A model generated the notes under the pieces. The model made no database searches and had not been told where the DNA came from. It was given only the letters and a program-made list of their open reading frames with translations. Source: Tubiluchus corallicola (taxonomy: Eukaryota; Priapulida; Priapulimorpha; Priapulimorphida; Tubiluchidae). Taken from it: a DNA stretch of 64,000 nt. Every line of letters begins with the position of its first letter. Positions within the stretch are counted from its first letter, which is position 1. A program made the position numbers and the translations under genes. The stretch is from the NCBI GenBank assembly GCA_030141605.1, contig JAQGDQ010000093.1, positions 124,001-188,000 of the forward strand, given 5' to 3'. Positions 18,301 through 50,600 of the stretch are shown piece by piece.

Positions 18301-21300
18301 GTGCTCTGGTTCCGTACAAGTATAAAGAACAAAAAAAAACACTAGTTATATTGAATATTATCGATAATATTGTGTGAAAATAGGGGATGCTGAAGTTCCA
18401 GAGAATCTACACACGAGCCGCCATTGGAATTCAGTTATTTAAGGTGTTATTCCCTGGACTAAGTCCTAAACGAAATTATTATTATTATTGCCCCTCACAG
18501 AATCACTGAGTTATTGTGGAAGCAATAACAACACTAGCTCAGTGCAGCTACATTTTCTCGGTTTATGCTAATCCACAGTGGACTGTGGACTGAATTTATA
18601 TATGAGCCTATCGTTCTTGAATGTACAGAAAAATTTAATAACTAATTAACACTGATGCTACCAGCCCAAATTTCGAAGCAAATGTACCTATTTGTAAGAT
18701 GTGAAATAGTTAACAGTGTTTGGTAACCAATATCCTCTGACTGGATGGCAGGTGATTTTCTAATTCAATTCAATTCAATTCAATTATTTATTATCTCCGT
18801 TAGAACGATAAAAATACAGTATAAAGAATACATGGAATATTTTGAAGCAAAGGAGAAGGGCAGCGAAGAACCCGTAGGTTATACAAAAACAACAGCGTTT
18901 TTATCTTCTGTGCGAAATGTACCGAATAAGAAGATAAAATATGAACAAATATATATCAAGTAGGTTAGATGTAATATTAATTACAACTGTTATTGTACTA
19001 GTAAAAATTTAGTAGAGATAGTGTAGATATGTATTTTCTGTTTTCATTCAGTAAGTGTTTCTTTGTCTTATTACAGTTGCATCTTTGGTGACATTTAACA
19101 CTTAGAAGCCACGCGTTAAAAATATGGATTTCTCTGTGCAAAATGCCAACTTTTTCAAGTGTTCTTAGATTTTTTTGGAAATGTGCAAAGTAAGTGAACT
19201 GTATACCATTTTGTAAATCTTTTCAAGCCCTACAAATCCCACCTTAGTTTCGTTTACAGTGACGGTTGCTATGTAGTAGTCTAAACTGTAGACAACTGTA
19301 GCCATTTTTAATGGCTAATCAAAATTACTTACAGCTACAGCTGTGTCCGGTTTTGTAGAACCCGTAGGTTATACAAAAACAACAACGTTTTTATCTTCTG
19401 TGCGAAATGTACCGAATAAGAAGATAAAATATGTACAAATATATATCAAGTAGGTTAGATGTAATATTAATTACAACTGTTATTGTACTAGTAAAAATTT
19501 AGTAGAGATAGTGTAGATATTTTCTGTTTTCATTCAGTATGTGCTTCTTTGTCTTATTACAGTTGCATCTTTGGTGACATTTAACACTTAGAAGCCACGC
19601 CTTAAAAATATGGATTTCTCCGTGCAAAATGCCAACTTTTTCAAGTGTTCTTAGATTTTTTTGGAAATGTGCAAAGTAAGTGAACTGTATACCATTTTGT
19701 AAATCTTTTCAAGCCCTACAAATCCCACCTTAGTTTCGTTTACAGTGACGGTTGCTATGTAGTAGTCTAAACTGTAGACAACTGTAGCCATTTTTAATGG
19801 CTAATCAAAATTACTTACAGCTACAGCTGTGTCCGGTTTTTCTTGAGCAACACTTTGCAGTACAAACTTTGTAACGACAGCCAAGTTACTTTGACTAACA
19901 TACACCATGGCAGCCATCACCTGAAATAAACATGGTAGTTCAATACAAAAAACTCCCGGAGGTGGAATTACCTTTGAACTAAAAACTCCCGGAGGTTGAT
20001 TTACCTTTAAACTAAAACTCCCGGAGGTTGATTTACCTTTAAAATAAAAACTCCCGGAGACTGAATTACCTTTAAACTAAAAACTCCCGGAGGCTGAATT
20101 ACCTTTAAACTAAAAACTCCCAGAGGTTGAATTACCTTTAAACTAAAAACTCCCAGAGGTTGAATTACCTTTAAACTAAAAACTTCTGGAGGCTGAATTA
20201 CCTTTAAACTAAAAACTCCCGGAGGCCGAATTACCTTTAAATTAAAAACTCCCGGAGGCTAAATTACCTTTAAACTAAAAACTCCCGGAGGCTGAATTAC
20301 CTCTAAATTAAAAACTCCCGGAGGTTGAATTACCTTTAAACTAAAAACTCCCGGAGGTTGAATTACCTTTTAAATGTTGTTAATCCGTCTTTTAATTTTA
20401 TACTTAAGGGTGCTGAATTCCATAAGTTGTTCGCTGTTCGTGATTTGACGAAGACCTATACAACAAACCTTAATCTTGAATAAAAGTCAAGACTAACCTT
20501 ATTTCTAACTTCATTCAGCATTTCAGGACTGAGTTGTAGATTTGATAGTGAATCCAAGATGGCTACCGTCAATTCATTATCCCACTGCAGTAAGTCACTG
20601 TGGAGAAAATAAAACACAGCGTTGAGAGAAACACAGTGATAATATTTAGGCAATTCTTTTATTTTTTTACAATTCGACAAGCTGCAAGCCAACACGGGAA
20701 CCTGGTGCATTATCAAGGCTAATCGTTTATCATGAGCTACTAAGCCAGTGGGGGTATCATGAACAAGTAGGCCATCATGAACAAGTCACAGACCAGCCTT
20801 AGCGTTGCTTAACTTTGATCGCAAAGAAATTTGGTTATTCGGCTAAGAGCACTTGGCCATTCACACCTGCTCCAATTTATCTATTTCCAAATCTTATTTT
20901 TAGTTTATATCTACTCTACATAAGTAATACCAAACATTTTGATTTCTGTGTTTAAAATGAGACATGATTCGTTCAGGAGTTACAAAAAGAATTCCCCAGA
21001 AGAACAAAAATTTACATATGTGTGCTTGCAAATCAAAATCGTTCATAAGACGCCAATTAAGCTATTCTAGTTATTCACATATCCTGAATCTCCATTTCGT
21101 GAGGATCATTTTGATACCAAGCTCATCACTCTATGTTATTTCTAACCGGAGATAATTCACGTTGAAGTTGAGCTGCATCATAACGCAGTTTAAACTATGC
21201 CGACTTATGGACGGTTTTGGTTTGCAAGCACACACATTAGTAATCACATCTGCCAAAGAAGTCCATGGTTTGTTTGTTTGTCTGTTCGCAAGATTATGTA

Positions 21301-24300
21301 AAAGTCTTAAAGCACAAGAAAATTCTCCACTTACATGAAGATGAAAAAGTTCGTCTTGAAATTTTATACCACTGACATACTGCCTTTTTGCATGCAGAGC
21401 TTGCATCGGCAGTAACGCTATATAAAACTTATAAATTTAAACTCCCGCGTTGACAGTTAGATGCAGCCATTTTAATTTTAGGTTGCTTGATACAAGTTTA
21501 GATGACATTGCATAAAGTTTGAAAAAATAATCAGAGCATTTGTAGTGCACTCTTCACTAACGAGTAAAATTTTAAATTACTGTATCTTGTAAATAAGATT
21601 AAAAATATGTTTTTAGTTATTGAGTGGTGCACCCTGGAGGGTGAACCAGCGACGTTCTACCAATTGGCACAAACATTTAAAAGTATTATTTTTACTTAAA
21701 TTAGTCTTTCTAACAGGTAAGCGAAAAGCTAAGTAATATAGAATTGAACGGAAAGTTTTTTGGGACATAATTTATATTTGCGTAGGTGACGTCATGTAAT
21801 GGTGACTGCAGAAAAGTATAGAGGGAGATTTAAAATGAAAACAAACATGAGTATGATATACGCATAAAATTGCTGTAAAGTGATATAATTTTTAAAAGCG
21901 ATTTTTTTGAAACCTACTTCAAGTACACCTTTTCTCGTCTTTCAACTAATTTTCCCAAAACTTACCCATGTGGCGGTGGCGGCAAGGGACAAGGAACAAT
22001 GCTTTCCACTTCGACAATGATTGATTAAGAATTGCAAAAGAAGATCAATTTTAGTTGACTACCTCTCACCTTTGTACAAAATTCCATGTAACGTCATGAT
22101 ACAGCTCTGCAGAAGCATTGTTAAAATGAAAGGGAGTACTAAAGGGGCAACAAGGGGGTTTGTCGTTTAGTAAATAGTCACATTCTGCAGGCCTAGGCGG
22201 AGCTCTGCGCTCTATACTGGATGCCATTCTAGCTTACGATTGTAACTCCACCAATATATTTAACATACACCAATTTTTGGGCGACATCAGCGTGCTGACT
22301 ATCGTCAATGATCTCTGGTAAACAACTGACGATTTCCTGTTTTGCCTCGACGCCACTCAAGCAGCCAAACATCTCTAACATAGAACTGCACAAATCCTGA
22401 AAGAACAAAACACATTTGTAATTGCAGCAAACAAACAAACCATATACACATCTTTTTCCTGTAGGTTTAAAAAGTATTTTATCAAGACATAATTTTGCTT
22501 ACATACTGATCTATTTCAATCTACTCTATTTTAATACTAATCTTTTCTTAACAACCATGATGCGCCTTAAATAGTTTTGTAAAATAAATTATCATTACTA
22601 CTGGTTTAAACTGTATATATTAGCACACAGAAAATTTAAACGATACATACATGAACAGCTGAAAGCTTTTTAACGGTACTAGGTGACTGGCTAACAGGTC
22701 TATAAAAAGAACCTATATAAAATTCTCTTACATGAAGACAGTCACAGTATTAGAAATCATTAAGAAATACATTAACTTCATACATTGGTGGTAAAACGGG
22801 AAGTAAAACGTGCAAGGAAGAAAATTCCAAAAATTAGTTGGGGGCGGATGATACAGGGATATGATAGATGAAAAATGGAAGTGGATGATTAATGGTACTC
22901 AGATATCATTGCCCTTGTTGCTGTTGGATGCATGATAAGATAAAGCAAATAGAAATGGTAGTTCTAATGCACTGTTAAATGCCTCCCATGCTGGAAAGGC
23001 CTAAGAAACATTGTTTTTGAGTCGCATTCAGAGTACCCAGTCTTCTGTTGCGAGTTTTTCCTCTGAGAGCAAGCTAGCAAGTGTGAACTGCAGTGTGAGT
23101 TACTATCGGCAAGTTAATGCAAACTCTCTGATAGTAATTTTTGTGGCTTTTCCAAAAAAAACTGTACCGTCCATCTCTATTGTGAATTTATAGTTGCTTA
23201 TGTAATGAGGAAATCAAACAGTTACTTGTGGTGTATTAGAAACACTATTAGCCTAGTTTCTACGTGGCCATTATTAATTACATATATTTGCATAGAGCTT
23301 ATATTCTAGCAGGCTGCACAACTACTTGTTGTGTAATCCATTGCACCTGTTCACTAGGAGGCACTTATATAAAAACAGCGCTCAGTAACTGCCTGTGGTG
23401 CATTATAAAAGGTGCCCTTTACTTGAATATGAAAGTATACACATTTTCCGAGGAGTATACTAAGATGCGACGCCCCTCAAACTTTGGATGCCCAGGCTAT
23501 AGCCTAGTTAGTCTATTGAATAATACGTCCCTGTTAATCGGTCCCATTCATTGATGAATGTCCACTCACCTTGGTATCAACGATGTAGTCCAGCCAACGA
23601 AACTGGCTCAAGATCAGCCGAGGCATGTCGACGACGGTCTCGCTTCTGACCAGATTCCTGAAGATGAAAAAACATTCATAAAATAATGAATAATAATATT
23701 ATTTATAGAATAATTTATTACATCAAAGTATTGCTGAAATAACTACGATTTAGTGCGGAAGCTTTGAGCAAAAATAGAATAATTTATACTCATACCTCGT
23801 TTTGCAGATATTGGAAGAATCAGACAAAATCTGGACCGTTAAAAGTCCCGCATACTAGGGACAAAGTCTGTTGTTTCGCGAGCTGATCACTAGGTGGCAG
23901 GCCGTCACTTTGTTTACATTATTACATTAACGTAACATGATTGTTTCTATGTATATTGTAGTGCACAAAAACAAAGTAAAAATAGTAAAAGCCAGTTGGG
24001 CTCACAAAAGTATCTTATTTAAGCATGTGCAAAAAAATATAGTTTACAATTATGCAGAGTTATTTGAGTCAATTATCGACAGCTTACATATACTATTGCA
24101 TAGGAGGTATACTATTTATGTAAACAACTATTCACAGGTACCATATTTACAACAATCACAACAGCAATTGCACACACAAGTTACGATATATAAAGTACTT
24201 ACTCTGCGCCACTATCAAACAAAACCAACTTTGCCAGCAGAATTTTTGAAAGCTTAACCTGAAACGAAACAAATGTGGCCGGTTAATAGAAATTGTTCAA

Positions 24301-38600: not shown

Positions 38601-41600
38601 TACTTCAAAGCTGAGATAATCCACATTGAAGATGATGTGCAGGCTGCACACTGAAAAACATAACTTTGAGAAAATCACTGTTAAAGTTAGCCATTGTTTT
38701 TTGTCGTGTTTCTACAAAACACTTAGCAACCTCAGAAATGTTGGTTGCTACGGACTTTGCAAGAACACATTGAAGTTATGTTTAAATCCAGTATATGGCT
38801 CTTTCTGACAAAGATCTGGGCTTGGCAGCTGAAAAAACTGCAAGCAAAATGACTGCTTCCACAAGCTACTATCGGAGTTTGAAAATACAAGTTTTTAGTT
38901 TCTAGTTACCTAAGGCTTTCAAGCAGGTAAGCGAAATGCTAAGTAACATAATTTTGTATGGAAAGTTTTTTGGGACCTAATTTTAACATTTCCTTTTCCA
39001 TCCCTGATTTATGTTGTGCGTAGTGACGTCATGTAATGGCGCCCTTAGAACAATGTCGCGGGAAATTTAAAATGAAAACAAACAAATATTCCTTTTTAAC
39101 ATCAGTGCGCATAAAATTGCTATAAAGTAATATAATTTTTTGGGGCGATTTTTTGTTAAACCTACTTCAGGTATCCCTTTTCTTGTCCATTAAGAACTTG
39201 AAGAGTTTCTTTCTTTGACAATTAGCATTTATATTGTAACATATTCCTTTTTTCATTCTAGGTCTCGTTCACTTGGTGAAGTCTCCGTTGGTAACGTCAG
39301 TTTACAGGTGTTTGGCGAAGCTCCAAAAAGTATGTTTTATTACCTGAAGGTGGCACTGCGTCAGGGCATCGTAACTAAGCAGGTACATTTTTCAGAAATG
39401 ATAGGAAGAGTATCGGTGACAGTAACGATCGTGTTCATGATTTAGTTTATAATTCAGTTAAATTCAATTTTTATTGATTATTTTTTCTTCTCTACTCTGC
39501 TAATGTAGAAACAGATCTCATCAAAGCTGCTAGCAATTATTACAAGCTTGTGGTTAGTCGTGGAATGACATATTGTGCAAACTAACGCAAACTTGGAACT
39601 TTAGCTTATTTTGTCGCTTTTGAAACCTCTGGCGCGACAAGTTATTTGAAATTTTATGTAAAAAAGGTCAGCGTTTAAAGGGGAGTGCTTTGCATTATAT
39701 GTATGTAAACTTTGTTTATCTTAAGTCAATTGACATACAGTAATATTACTGATCGGAGTTTTTCCACTGTGCAACAAATACATTTTAGTTGAGAGCAGAT
39801 ATATACAACTGGTTATCAAGAATATAGTTACATATATAGTTAGTTCAAAACACAAGTAATTCATCAGTTAACACTTAAAATTGAAATATACTGAGGTCAC
39901 AGAGTACAGAAGCAATGTCAGAAACAATTATCAATATACAATGTATTAGTTATACAAAAGTATGATAGCTCAATAGCTGGTGTGTAATTCAAAAGTCCAA
40001 AATTCAAAATTATCCAGATTACATTTCAAAATACAATTACAAGTACAATCAATTAGCAAAACGTTTAGTAGACTTTGTGTAGTTCTTCAAGAGATTTGAA
40101 GAGAATGCCACTGGATGGGTGACCTAATCTGAGTTTAAGTATGTTTCTGAGTTTAAAACTGAGAAATGTTTTTGTAGATAATAGCAAGTCTAAGGTTGGC
40201 GTGTAATTCTTGAGTTATGTGTCGATAATAACAGAGCTGATCCAATAATAGTGTTCTGTGTATGTCATAGTTTGAATACTCAAAAGGCGTATAAAATGCT
40301 GTCGTGTTTTGTGCTTTGCAGAATTATCACCACAGGAGTCCGGCAGGTGTGGTACAACATGGACGACTGTTCCATTTGAAGCGGTTCTACGTCGAGCGCA
40401 AGAGTCGGTCGGAAATATTGCTGCAGAGACTGTGCGAGATCTTGTGCAGTTCACCGAATCTGCGTGAGGAAATCAGCACAGTGCGAGAAAAAATGGTCGG
40501 TTTACAACTCAATTCAGTCTTTTTTTGTTGCACAGTACGAGAAAAAATGGTCGGTTTACAGCTCAATTCAATCTTTTTTGTTGCACAGTGCAAGAAAAAA
40601 TGGTCGGTTTTCAACTCAATTCAAACTTTTTTCGCATAGTATCTGCTCAATTACACAGTTTGTACACTTTGGTAAAGCGCAAGTTGGAATGCGAGTTCAT
40701 TAGCAGTTGTTACTCAATTTTACTCGTGGCAAGACTGAAACCTAGCTCATTATTGAGGCTGTCCCTTTAAGATGAGCCACTGAACTAACAGAAGTGTCTC
40801 AGCCATGTTCAGACGTGTACAACACTGTACATCCTCCCTCTAGAAGGTAAACAGTCAAAATTGTCATGGCAAATAAAACCACCCAGAACAAGCGTTGAAG
40901 TGGTTCACCTGTTAATTGACATTGTTCAATTCCATTCTCAATTTCGGTCCCTCAAGCACTACACTGTGACCACTCGGCCATCCATCTCATATATCTTCAT
41001 GTTAAAAATTCGTGTTTTGGGATCATAAAATTGGCAAAGCGAAATGAAATTTTTCATCCTTTGTTATTGTTTATCACGGTTTATTGTAAATCAATTTGGA
41101 AGCCACTTGAAAGTGTTTTCAGCCGCACATTCCACACATTCTGAAACTCGCCTGTAAGTTAGCGAAGTTGTTATTACATTCATTAAACAACTAATAACGA
41201 CGTTGTTGATGGTTTTGGGAAACTTTGCCCAGTTTTGCTGCAGCCGTAATTTCTGCATGCATGTGAATGCACCATAACGGTGTGGTACATTTCCTTTATG
41301 TATTTCTTATGTTCATCTTAACATGTTTCGTGTTTTTTAGGGTCTAGATGTGAACAGTTTGAAGCGCATTTACCAGGGGAACCCACAAGTTGTGCGTCTC
41401 ATTTCTTACCCTTATAGAACTATTTACCCCAATGCTGATGAGTCGGAGGTGAGTCAGTCAGTGCATCTGTATGACATAAAGCAAAACCGGACCCAATGTT
41501 AAACTGTAGGTCAAAGCAATCTACTCTTTAAAATATTGAAAGGAAACATACTATTTTTTCAAAAGTGACTCACGTGAAAGAATTATTACCACACAAACAC

Positions 41601-47600: not shown

Positions 47601-50600
47601 ATGTTTTTTAGTGTGTAGCCTGCACCTCAACTTCAACATGGATTATCTCAGTTTAGATATAACATAGAGCAATGAGCTTGGTATCAAAATGATCCTCATG
47701 AAATAGAGATTCAGGATATGTGAATAACTAGAAAAGCTTAATTGACGACTTACGGACGATTTTGCTATGCAAGCACACATATTGTAAAGCCTTATGTGAA
47801 AAGTTTAACAAACTTATTTATACTCCAGGCTTGTATGTACATTTGAGATTAGAAAGTATTTACATAATTTACAATATATCATCGGAAAATTTTACATTGG
47901 TAAAAATGCATTATACTCTGTAAGATAACTAGTTTAAAGTATTAAAGTGCTGAGTATTGACTAATTTCTATGCAGGTCTTCTTAATATATCTCTGCAATA
48001 GCTGAAACAAGGAATGTTTTGATTGTAAATTAGTTGAGGATTATCAGATAAGATGGTTAATGTTTTATCCTGTGAATTGAGATTGTTGAAATTAACAGAT
48101 ATTGTATTATAAGTAAATAAATGTATGTTTGCATAGCAAAATCATCCGAAAGTCAGCACATAGCATGATGATCTCTGAAAAGGCCAAAGGTTAAGTGACA
48201 CTTGACAACGCCTCACAGCCCATACTGTTGTGATACTAACAATTTTAACAGCTAGCTAGAACCTTACCTAGTTCATTTTTTCTTATTTCCAAGCAAGATC
48301 CTGCTAGTAAATCATACTACGCACAGACTAATGCATGACTAACTAACGTAAACCAAACTGAAGTTACTGAACTGATGCGGCAGACCCACTTTGCTTTACC
48401 CACGTCACGTGGCGCTTCTAGCTAAGACGCGTTGTTGTGGTACACTTAAATTTTGACCTACAGCAACTGGCGTGCACACAACGAAACTGTGAAAAGGCTT
48501 ATTGAGTGGTTTTGTTGCTGCTACTAGTGTTACTGCTCGTTTCTGATCATTGATTTTTGTTACGTTACTCAGGTCTCTGAAACGAGCAAATATGGTCATG
48601 GAAGCAGTCAGACAAGCAAAGCTTATTGAGAATATAGTCACCTTGAAAAAGGTAAGTTGAACTTTTCTCTATAGGAATGGGTAATATGGGTGAGCTTTCT
48701 GTATCAGAAAGTAAATTCGAATCTAATAAAATTTTTGATTTTCAAACTCGAATTTAATCAATTTTAAGATTTCGAATCCAAATCAAAATCAGTTTCAGTT
48801 TTAACGTTTTTTGTATAAATTTTTGAAGCATAAATAAAAAACATTTTCAAAGAACTGTATAGTGTGAACGCCTGTGCGAGTTACTCTCGACACTTCTTGC
48901 AGTGAATAGAGAAGAGAGTGCTAGCTCACACTTACTTTCGGGAGTAATTCGCAGCAAGTTTTGCTTTCTAGTCTGAACACGCTTTCGCATTACTTTGCGA
49001 GTTACCCTTACCTGAACGTGCCATGCCGTAAGGTGTTTTCTTTTTTATTTGGTTTATGATGAACACAGCTAATTTGAAAGTTATCTGATTAAATATGTAA
49101 TTACACTCATATCTCAGTTTCCAGAACGAAAGCGGGGAGATGTTGGTCCGAATTTGCTGATTGTCCGTATTTACCGATACTAAAGTAATACAGTAGGTGC
49201 TGTGTATCAGACTCATAGTAATGTAGAATTAATCAGCTAATTCTCTAAAAAACGTCTAGCATGGGCCACGCCTATGCAAAAGTGTATAAAAACTGTCTGC
49301 AATTGCCTGAAATATCTCTGCGTAATTGACTCTACACCATACGCTGATGTTTAAGTTACACACGTGTCGTTACACGCTGTTTGGATGTAAACATAGTGAC
49401 CGGCCACCAACTAGTGGTCAGCTCGCGAAATAACAGACTGTGTCCATAGTATGCGGGACTTTTTACCGTCCAGATTTTGTCCGAATTTTCTGATATCTGT
49501 AAGAGCAAGGTCCAGCGGCCGAGATATGAGTGTATGTAATACTTTCATTCCTGATTTTTTCTTCCTTCCCAGATGATCATAGAGGAGGAGGAAAGGGAAG
49601 GATATCCCTGTCTCATGGACAGGAAGTCATTAATGAGAATCATTAGTAAGCTGGTCGCTGATGGTTCCATTAAACTTTTTAAAACCAAAATACAAATTGG
49701 CGATGAAGAGAAAATGGTGAGTACGATGACAGCCAAGTTAGTGAAAAAATATATTAAAGTCAAGAATGGCTGACATGAAGATCCTGTGTGGTCTCTGTTT
49801 ACTTTGACAGTGATAGTAAACTGATAATGTTGCATGTAGTGTGTTCACATACTGAAGGCAGCTTATTTAAAGGACAAGACAACACTATTCTTAATAAACT
49901 GATACACCTAGTGTGTTCACATACTGAAGGCAGCTTATTTAAAGGACAAGACAACACTATCCTTAATAAACGGATACACCTAGTGTGTTCACATACTGAA
50001 GGCAACTTATTTAAAGGACAAGACAACGCTATCCTTAATAAACTGATACACCTAGTGTGTTCACATACTGAAGGCAACTTATTTAAAGGACAAGACAACG
50101 CTATCCTTAATAAACTGATACACCTAGTGTGTTCACATATTGAAGGCAGCTTATTTAAAGGACAAAACAACACTATTCTTAATAAACTGATACATATAGT
50201 GTGTTCACATACTGAAGGCAACTTATTTAAAGGACAAGACAACATTATTCCTAATAAACTGATGCATATACTGTGTTTATATATGGAAGGCAGCTTATTT
50301 AAAGGACAAAACAATGCTATCCTTCTATAAAGCTAAAAAATTCATCTTAAGCTTTTGCATCACTTACTTGCTGTGCTGTCTTATTGCACACAGAGCTTGT
50401 ATTAGCTATAACACTGTATAGAGCTTGAAATTTTAATTCCCTCAATGACCATTAGGCACAGCCATTTTGACGATAAGTCGTTTCGAAACAAGTTTGGATG
50501 ACATTGCTCAAAGTTTGAAAAAATAATCTGAGCATTCGTAATGCACTCTTCATTATTAATGCAAAAGTATAAATTATTTTATATTGCCTGTCAGATCAAT

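Follow-up and report, generated by a model that had tools for sequence, protein, structure and literature searches.

The end of one GTF3C1 coding exon occurs three times in succession in the window (the whole 64-kb stretch of DNA analyzed here), and each copy carries a splice donor. Does the gene use the additional donors, either to lengthen the exon or to splice in micro-exons, or are they passive by-products of tandem duplication?

A tandem unit across a GTF3C1 exon-intron border

The features on which the argument turns are as follows.

40322..40495, + strand: GTF3C1 coding exon in its ancestral form, ending ...TVREKM, with donor 1 at 40496 (gapless junction against human GTF3C1, 8cli_A 230-316)
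40477..40530, + strand: copy 1 of the tandem unit (54 bp), with exon tail, donor 1, and T-rich intron start
40496..40549, + strand: in-frame extension if donor 2 were used (VGLQLNSVFFCCTVREKM; 54 nt, from translation), without a human GTF3C1 counterpart
40531..40583, + strand: copy 2 (53 bp), with acceptor-like CACAG (next base 40536), 14-nt segment 40536-40549, and donor 2 at 40550
40584..40632, + strand: copy 3 (partial, to the T-run), with acceptor-like CACAG (next base 40589), 14-nt segment 40589-40602, and donor 3 at 40603
40633..40640, + strand: CGCATAGT, which partly matches the GCACAGT that opens the unit; possible microhomology in the first duplication
41341..41448, + strand: next GTF3C1 exon (GLDVNSLKR...), placed by homology, with an acceptor at 41341 (score 6.6)

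The triplication described in an earlier note on this DNA was recovered at the same place by both TRF (40476-40632; period 53, 2.9 copies, 90% matches, score 265) and a direct-repeat finder, with steps of 54 and 53. The layout proposed there for copies 2 and 3, i.e., a T-run, GTTGCACAG, 14 nt ending AAAAAATG, and GTCGGT, also holds. The unit comprises about 19 nt of exonic and about 34 nt of intronic origin; in copy 1, the first 19 nt (40477-40495) are coding and the remainder is intron. Over the first 48 positions, 45 are identical between copies 1 and 2, 44 between copies 1 and 3, and 43 between copies 2 and 3, the differences being six scattered variable columns, plus one difference in T-run length. 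A divergence of 6-10% suggests that the array is not very recent, unless mutation is fast at this locus, and also makes an assembly artifact from identical reads unlikely. A dispersed repeat is ruled out by the single match of the triplicated stretch in the whole assembly (343.5 Mb, 2344 contigs), in which a search found no second gene copy, paralogue, or processed copy of the two exons. Full-length single-exon Cpn60/TCP1 genes lie on contigs C1923, C1917, C1761, C846, C1597, C1531, and C2335; these contigs are possibly contaminants, or the genes intron poor.

The assignment of the gene to GTF3C1 (TFIIIC220) is well grounded. Translated together with the next exon, 40322-40495 matches human GTF3C1 (8cli_A) with an E value of 3.5e-9, and the donor-1 join REKM|GLDV aligns without a gap to human REEL|GLCE. 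This gapless match of the 40495-41341 join identifies donor 1 as the ancestral site and its splicing to 41341 as giving the ancestral product. When the query included neighboring exons and the 18-residue insertion, the E value for 8cli_A was 4.4e-17 and the first aligned stretch ended exactly at REKM, the human protein having no counterpart of the 18 residues. A Pfam search of the 94-aa piece gave no match, and a literature search on GTF3C1 alternative splicing returned nothing relevant.

The window is rich in minisatellites, with 10 arrays (unit of at least 25 bp) in 64 kb, while myosin gene regions totaling 110 kb have 5. The array at 49837-50324, just after the GTF3C1 exon-like ORF 49555-49770, has a 72-bp unit (a multiple of 3) in 6.8 copies and is stop free, with 183 codons open on the + strand (49779-50327) and 177 on the - strand; it is probably intronic. 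At 19948-20370, a 33-bp unit is present in 12.8 copies, and the minus strand is open as PPGVFSLKVIQ-like repeats. A direct duplication of 486 bp, 97% identical, occupies 18867-19840.

Splice signals, intron lengths, and reading frame

Splice sites were scored with a species-specific matrix derived from 28 introns of myosin genes, which were placed with the help of homology anchors and reading frame. This is a small set with a few uncertain junctions, and its selection by a generic consensus favors consensus-like sites. On this scale, the donor ATG|GTCGGT scores 3.5, which places it at the 14th percentile among true donors and at the 84th among all GT dinucleotides in the window. Donors 1, 2, and 3 share all 9 scored positions and are thus equally weak for this genome. 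Since the 9-mers do not differ, strength alone cannot favor donor 1, and the choice depends on context. RNA accessibility was dropped as a guide to that choice because the differences at the donors (0.32-0.50) are small and context dependent. Among the acceptor-like sites, that of copy 2 scores 7.0, at the 50th percentile (the median) of true acceptors, and that of copy 3 scores 3.9, at the 32nd percentile. Taken singly, the predicted acceptor-like and donor sites therefore look usable. In the myosin matches, contig C917 showed a pair at about 20400-21788 (-) and 92822-94210 (+) with identical scores and opposite orientations, which would represent either a large inverted duplication or an assembly palindrome.

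Copies 2 and 3 had been read as back-to-back acceptor/micro-exon/donor sets. The duplicate donors and the acceptor-like CACAG motifs beside T-rich tracts are indeed there, with scores within the true range, but serial use is implausible because the introns would then measure 40 nt (40496-40535) and 39 nt (40550-40588), compared to 100 to 1736 nt among the 28 sampled introns. Furthermore, translation revealed that early stops appear once one or two of the 14-nt exons (14 or 28 nt) are inserted, i.e., the micro-exon does not keep the frame.

The one micro-exon path that seems conceivable joins donor 1 to acceptor 3 and donor 3 to 41341, which would include the 14 nt at 40589-40602 and might lower GTF3C1 output in some cells by means of a stop-containing form. 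The TGC just upstream of CACAG resembles the acceptors of vertebrate neuronal micro-exons, a likeness that adds to the acceptor score in its favor. Nevertheless, we regard this path as very improbable: the putative exon is only 14 nt long, has a weak donor, and shifts the frame into an immediate stop, and the first intron would span 93 nt, a borderline value, yet shorter than any of those sampled. A search for the micro-exon activator domain PF15230 retrieved no match, but the control was equally silent, which makes the result uninformative.

Among the added sites, donor 2 alone keeps the full protein. As the earlier note had claimed, the 54-nt step keeps an open frame (VGLQLNSVFFCCTVREKM) and adds 18 residues. 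Use of donor 2 also restores the exact REKM|GLDV junction. The next step loses the frame, also as anticipated, donor 3 (+107 nt) giving a frameshift and an early stop. It is possible, although on balance we doubt it, that donor 2 is the regular or even the main site, in which case the exon would carry a lineage-specific extension composed of VGLQLNSVFFCC and a repeated TVREKM. Besides the intact frame and a strength equal to that of donor 1, this reading could invoke the sole change in the copy-2 TVREKM segment, a GTG to GTA substitution that would be silent in that frame; one synonymous change, however, carries no weight. The lack of a counterpart in human GTF3C1 argues against it, and so do the chance expectations, since one in three steps is in frame and 34% of random 54-mers in the window are open in a given frame. 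The tandem unit is free of TAA, TAG, and TGA in every + frame (3.4% per unit by chance), and this stop-free stretch was simply copied along. The open +54 frame is thus weak evidence for use.

Origin of the array and probable use of its donors

The explanation that we favor, with slightly better than even confidence, is a passive triplication in which donor 1 remains the main site and donor 2 possibly provides a minor isoform. A 53-54-bp segment across the GTF3C1 exon-intron border, i.e., exon tail, donor, and T-rich intron start, would have been copied in a first duplication, probably primed by GCACAGT/GCATAGT microhomology; the exonic unit start GCACAGT and CGCATAGT after the last copy match at 6 of 7 positions. 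A second round or slippage would then have expanded the array to three copies, leaving the ancestral donor followed, farther downstream within the intron, by two additional donors identical to it. The 174 kb examined contain 15 arrays with a unit of at least 25 bp, of which 10 lie in the 64-kb window, so that the landing of one on an exon border is by itself no surprise.

Under passive triplication, most functional mRNA would still join donor 1 (40495) to 41341. Donor 2 would probably be an occasional alternative, adding 18 tolerated residues in frame at a point that has no insertion in the human alignment. Products of donor 3 or of a micro-exon would bear early stops and be removed, and the acceptor-like sites would be by-products of the exonic CACAG being placed after intronic T-runs. 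Purifying selection would hold the exon part of copy 1, and private changes in the exon-derived segment number zero in copy 1 and one each in copies 2 and 3, although these numbers are tiny. Against passive triplication, copies 2 and 3 keep their donors intact while the unit has diverged; few sites are involved, and the observation is not significant.

Among duplicated strong donors, the intron-proximal one, here donor 3, is often favored, which likewise speaks against donor 1 as the main site. Given that the three donors are identical, such a preference could make donor 3 dominant, much GTF3C1 mRNA nonproductive, and the allele a weak hypomorph. We consider this scenario highly unlikely, since TFIIIC220 is an essential Pol III factor and the 6-10% divergence indicates that the arrangement has persisted, unlike a strongly harmful allele. 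We give equally little credence to a bolder scenario, in which duplication of the donor-side boundary would have created both the in-frame 18-residue extension and a nascent micro-exon, with its acceptor recruited from coding sequence, before the splice pattern became fixed in the gene of this essential factor.

If RNA shows use of donor 2, the locus would be a natural experiment on how splicing selects one of three identical donors in near-identical local contexts, and it would mirror, on the donor side, the boundary duplication known from potato. If donor 2 is unused, a splice donor just happens to lie within an ordinary short tandem array.

Relation to known duplication and intron-gain cases

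The earlier note likened the locus to intron birth by tandem duplication of an AGGT-containing exon segment. As outlined in PMC4974935 and PMC3443670, that model (Rogers 1989), of which ATP2A1 (Hellsten 2011) is a case, shares with GTF3C1 the creation of new potential splice sites by tandem duplication. The likeness does not extend further with respect to the model in this outline: the GTF3C1 unit has ATGGTCGGT instead of AGGT, it spans the border rather than being purely exonic, and the duplicate sits in an existing intron, with no new intron arising within coding sequence. Each use of the copies alters the protein or adds a stop, and none leaves it unchanged via a new intron. Also related is the imprecise gain that follows internal duplication by way of latent splice sites (review in PMC3443670), in that latent sites in the duplicated stretch may add coding nucleotides, such as the +54 option. 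GTF3C1 would gain coding sequence by an alternative donor and not an intron.

A literature search for duplicated-donor cases found nothing closer than the potato RdRp gene PGSC0003DMG402000361, a boundary-spanning tandem duplication with a new intron proven by RNA reads (Ma, Lan and Niu 2016, PMC4974935). In both genes, the tandem duplication crosses an exon-intron border, the copies have diverged, and they inherit the splice signals of the parent border together with one signal recruited from the exon. In potato, it is the 3' (acceptor) border that was duplicated and a donor that was recruited, whereas GTF3C1 has three copies of the 5' (donor) border and an acceptor-like CACAG as the recruited signal. 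The potato intron is RNA proven; the GTF3C1 case is known from genomic sequence. By analogy, the GTF3C1 triplication can be viewed as the donor-side counterpart of the potato RdRp case, its nearest published parallel.
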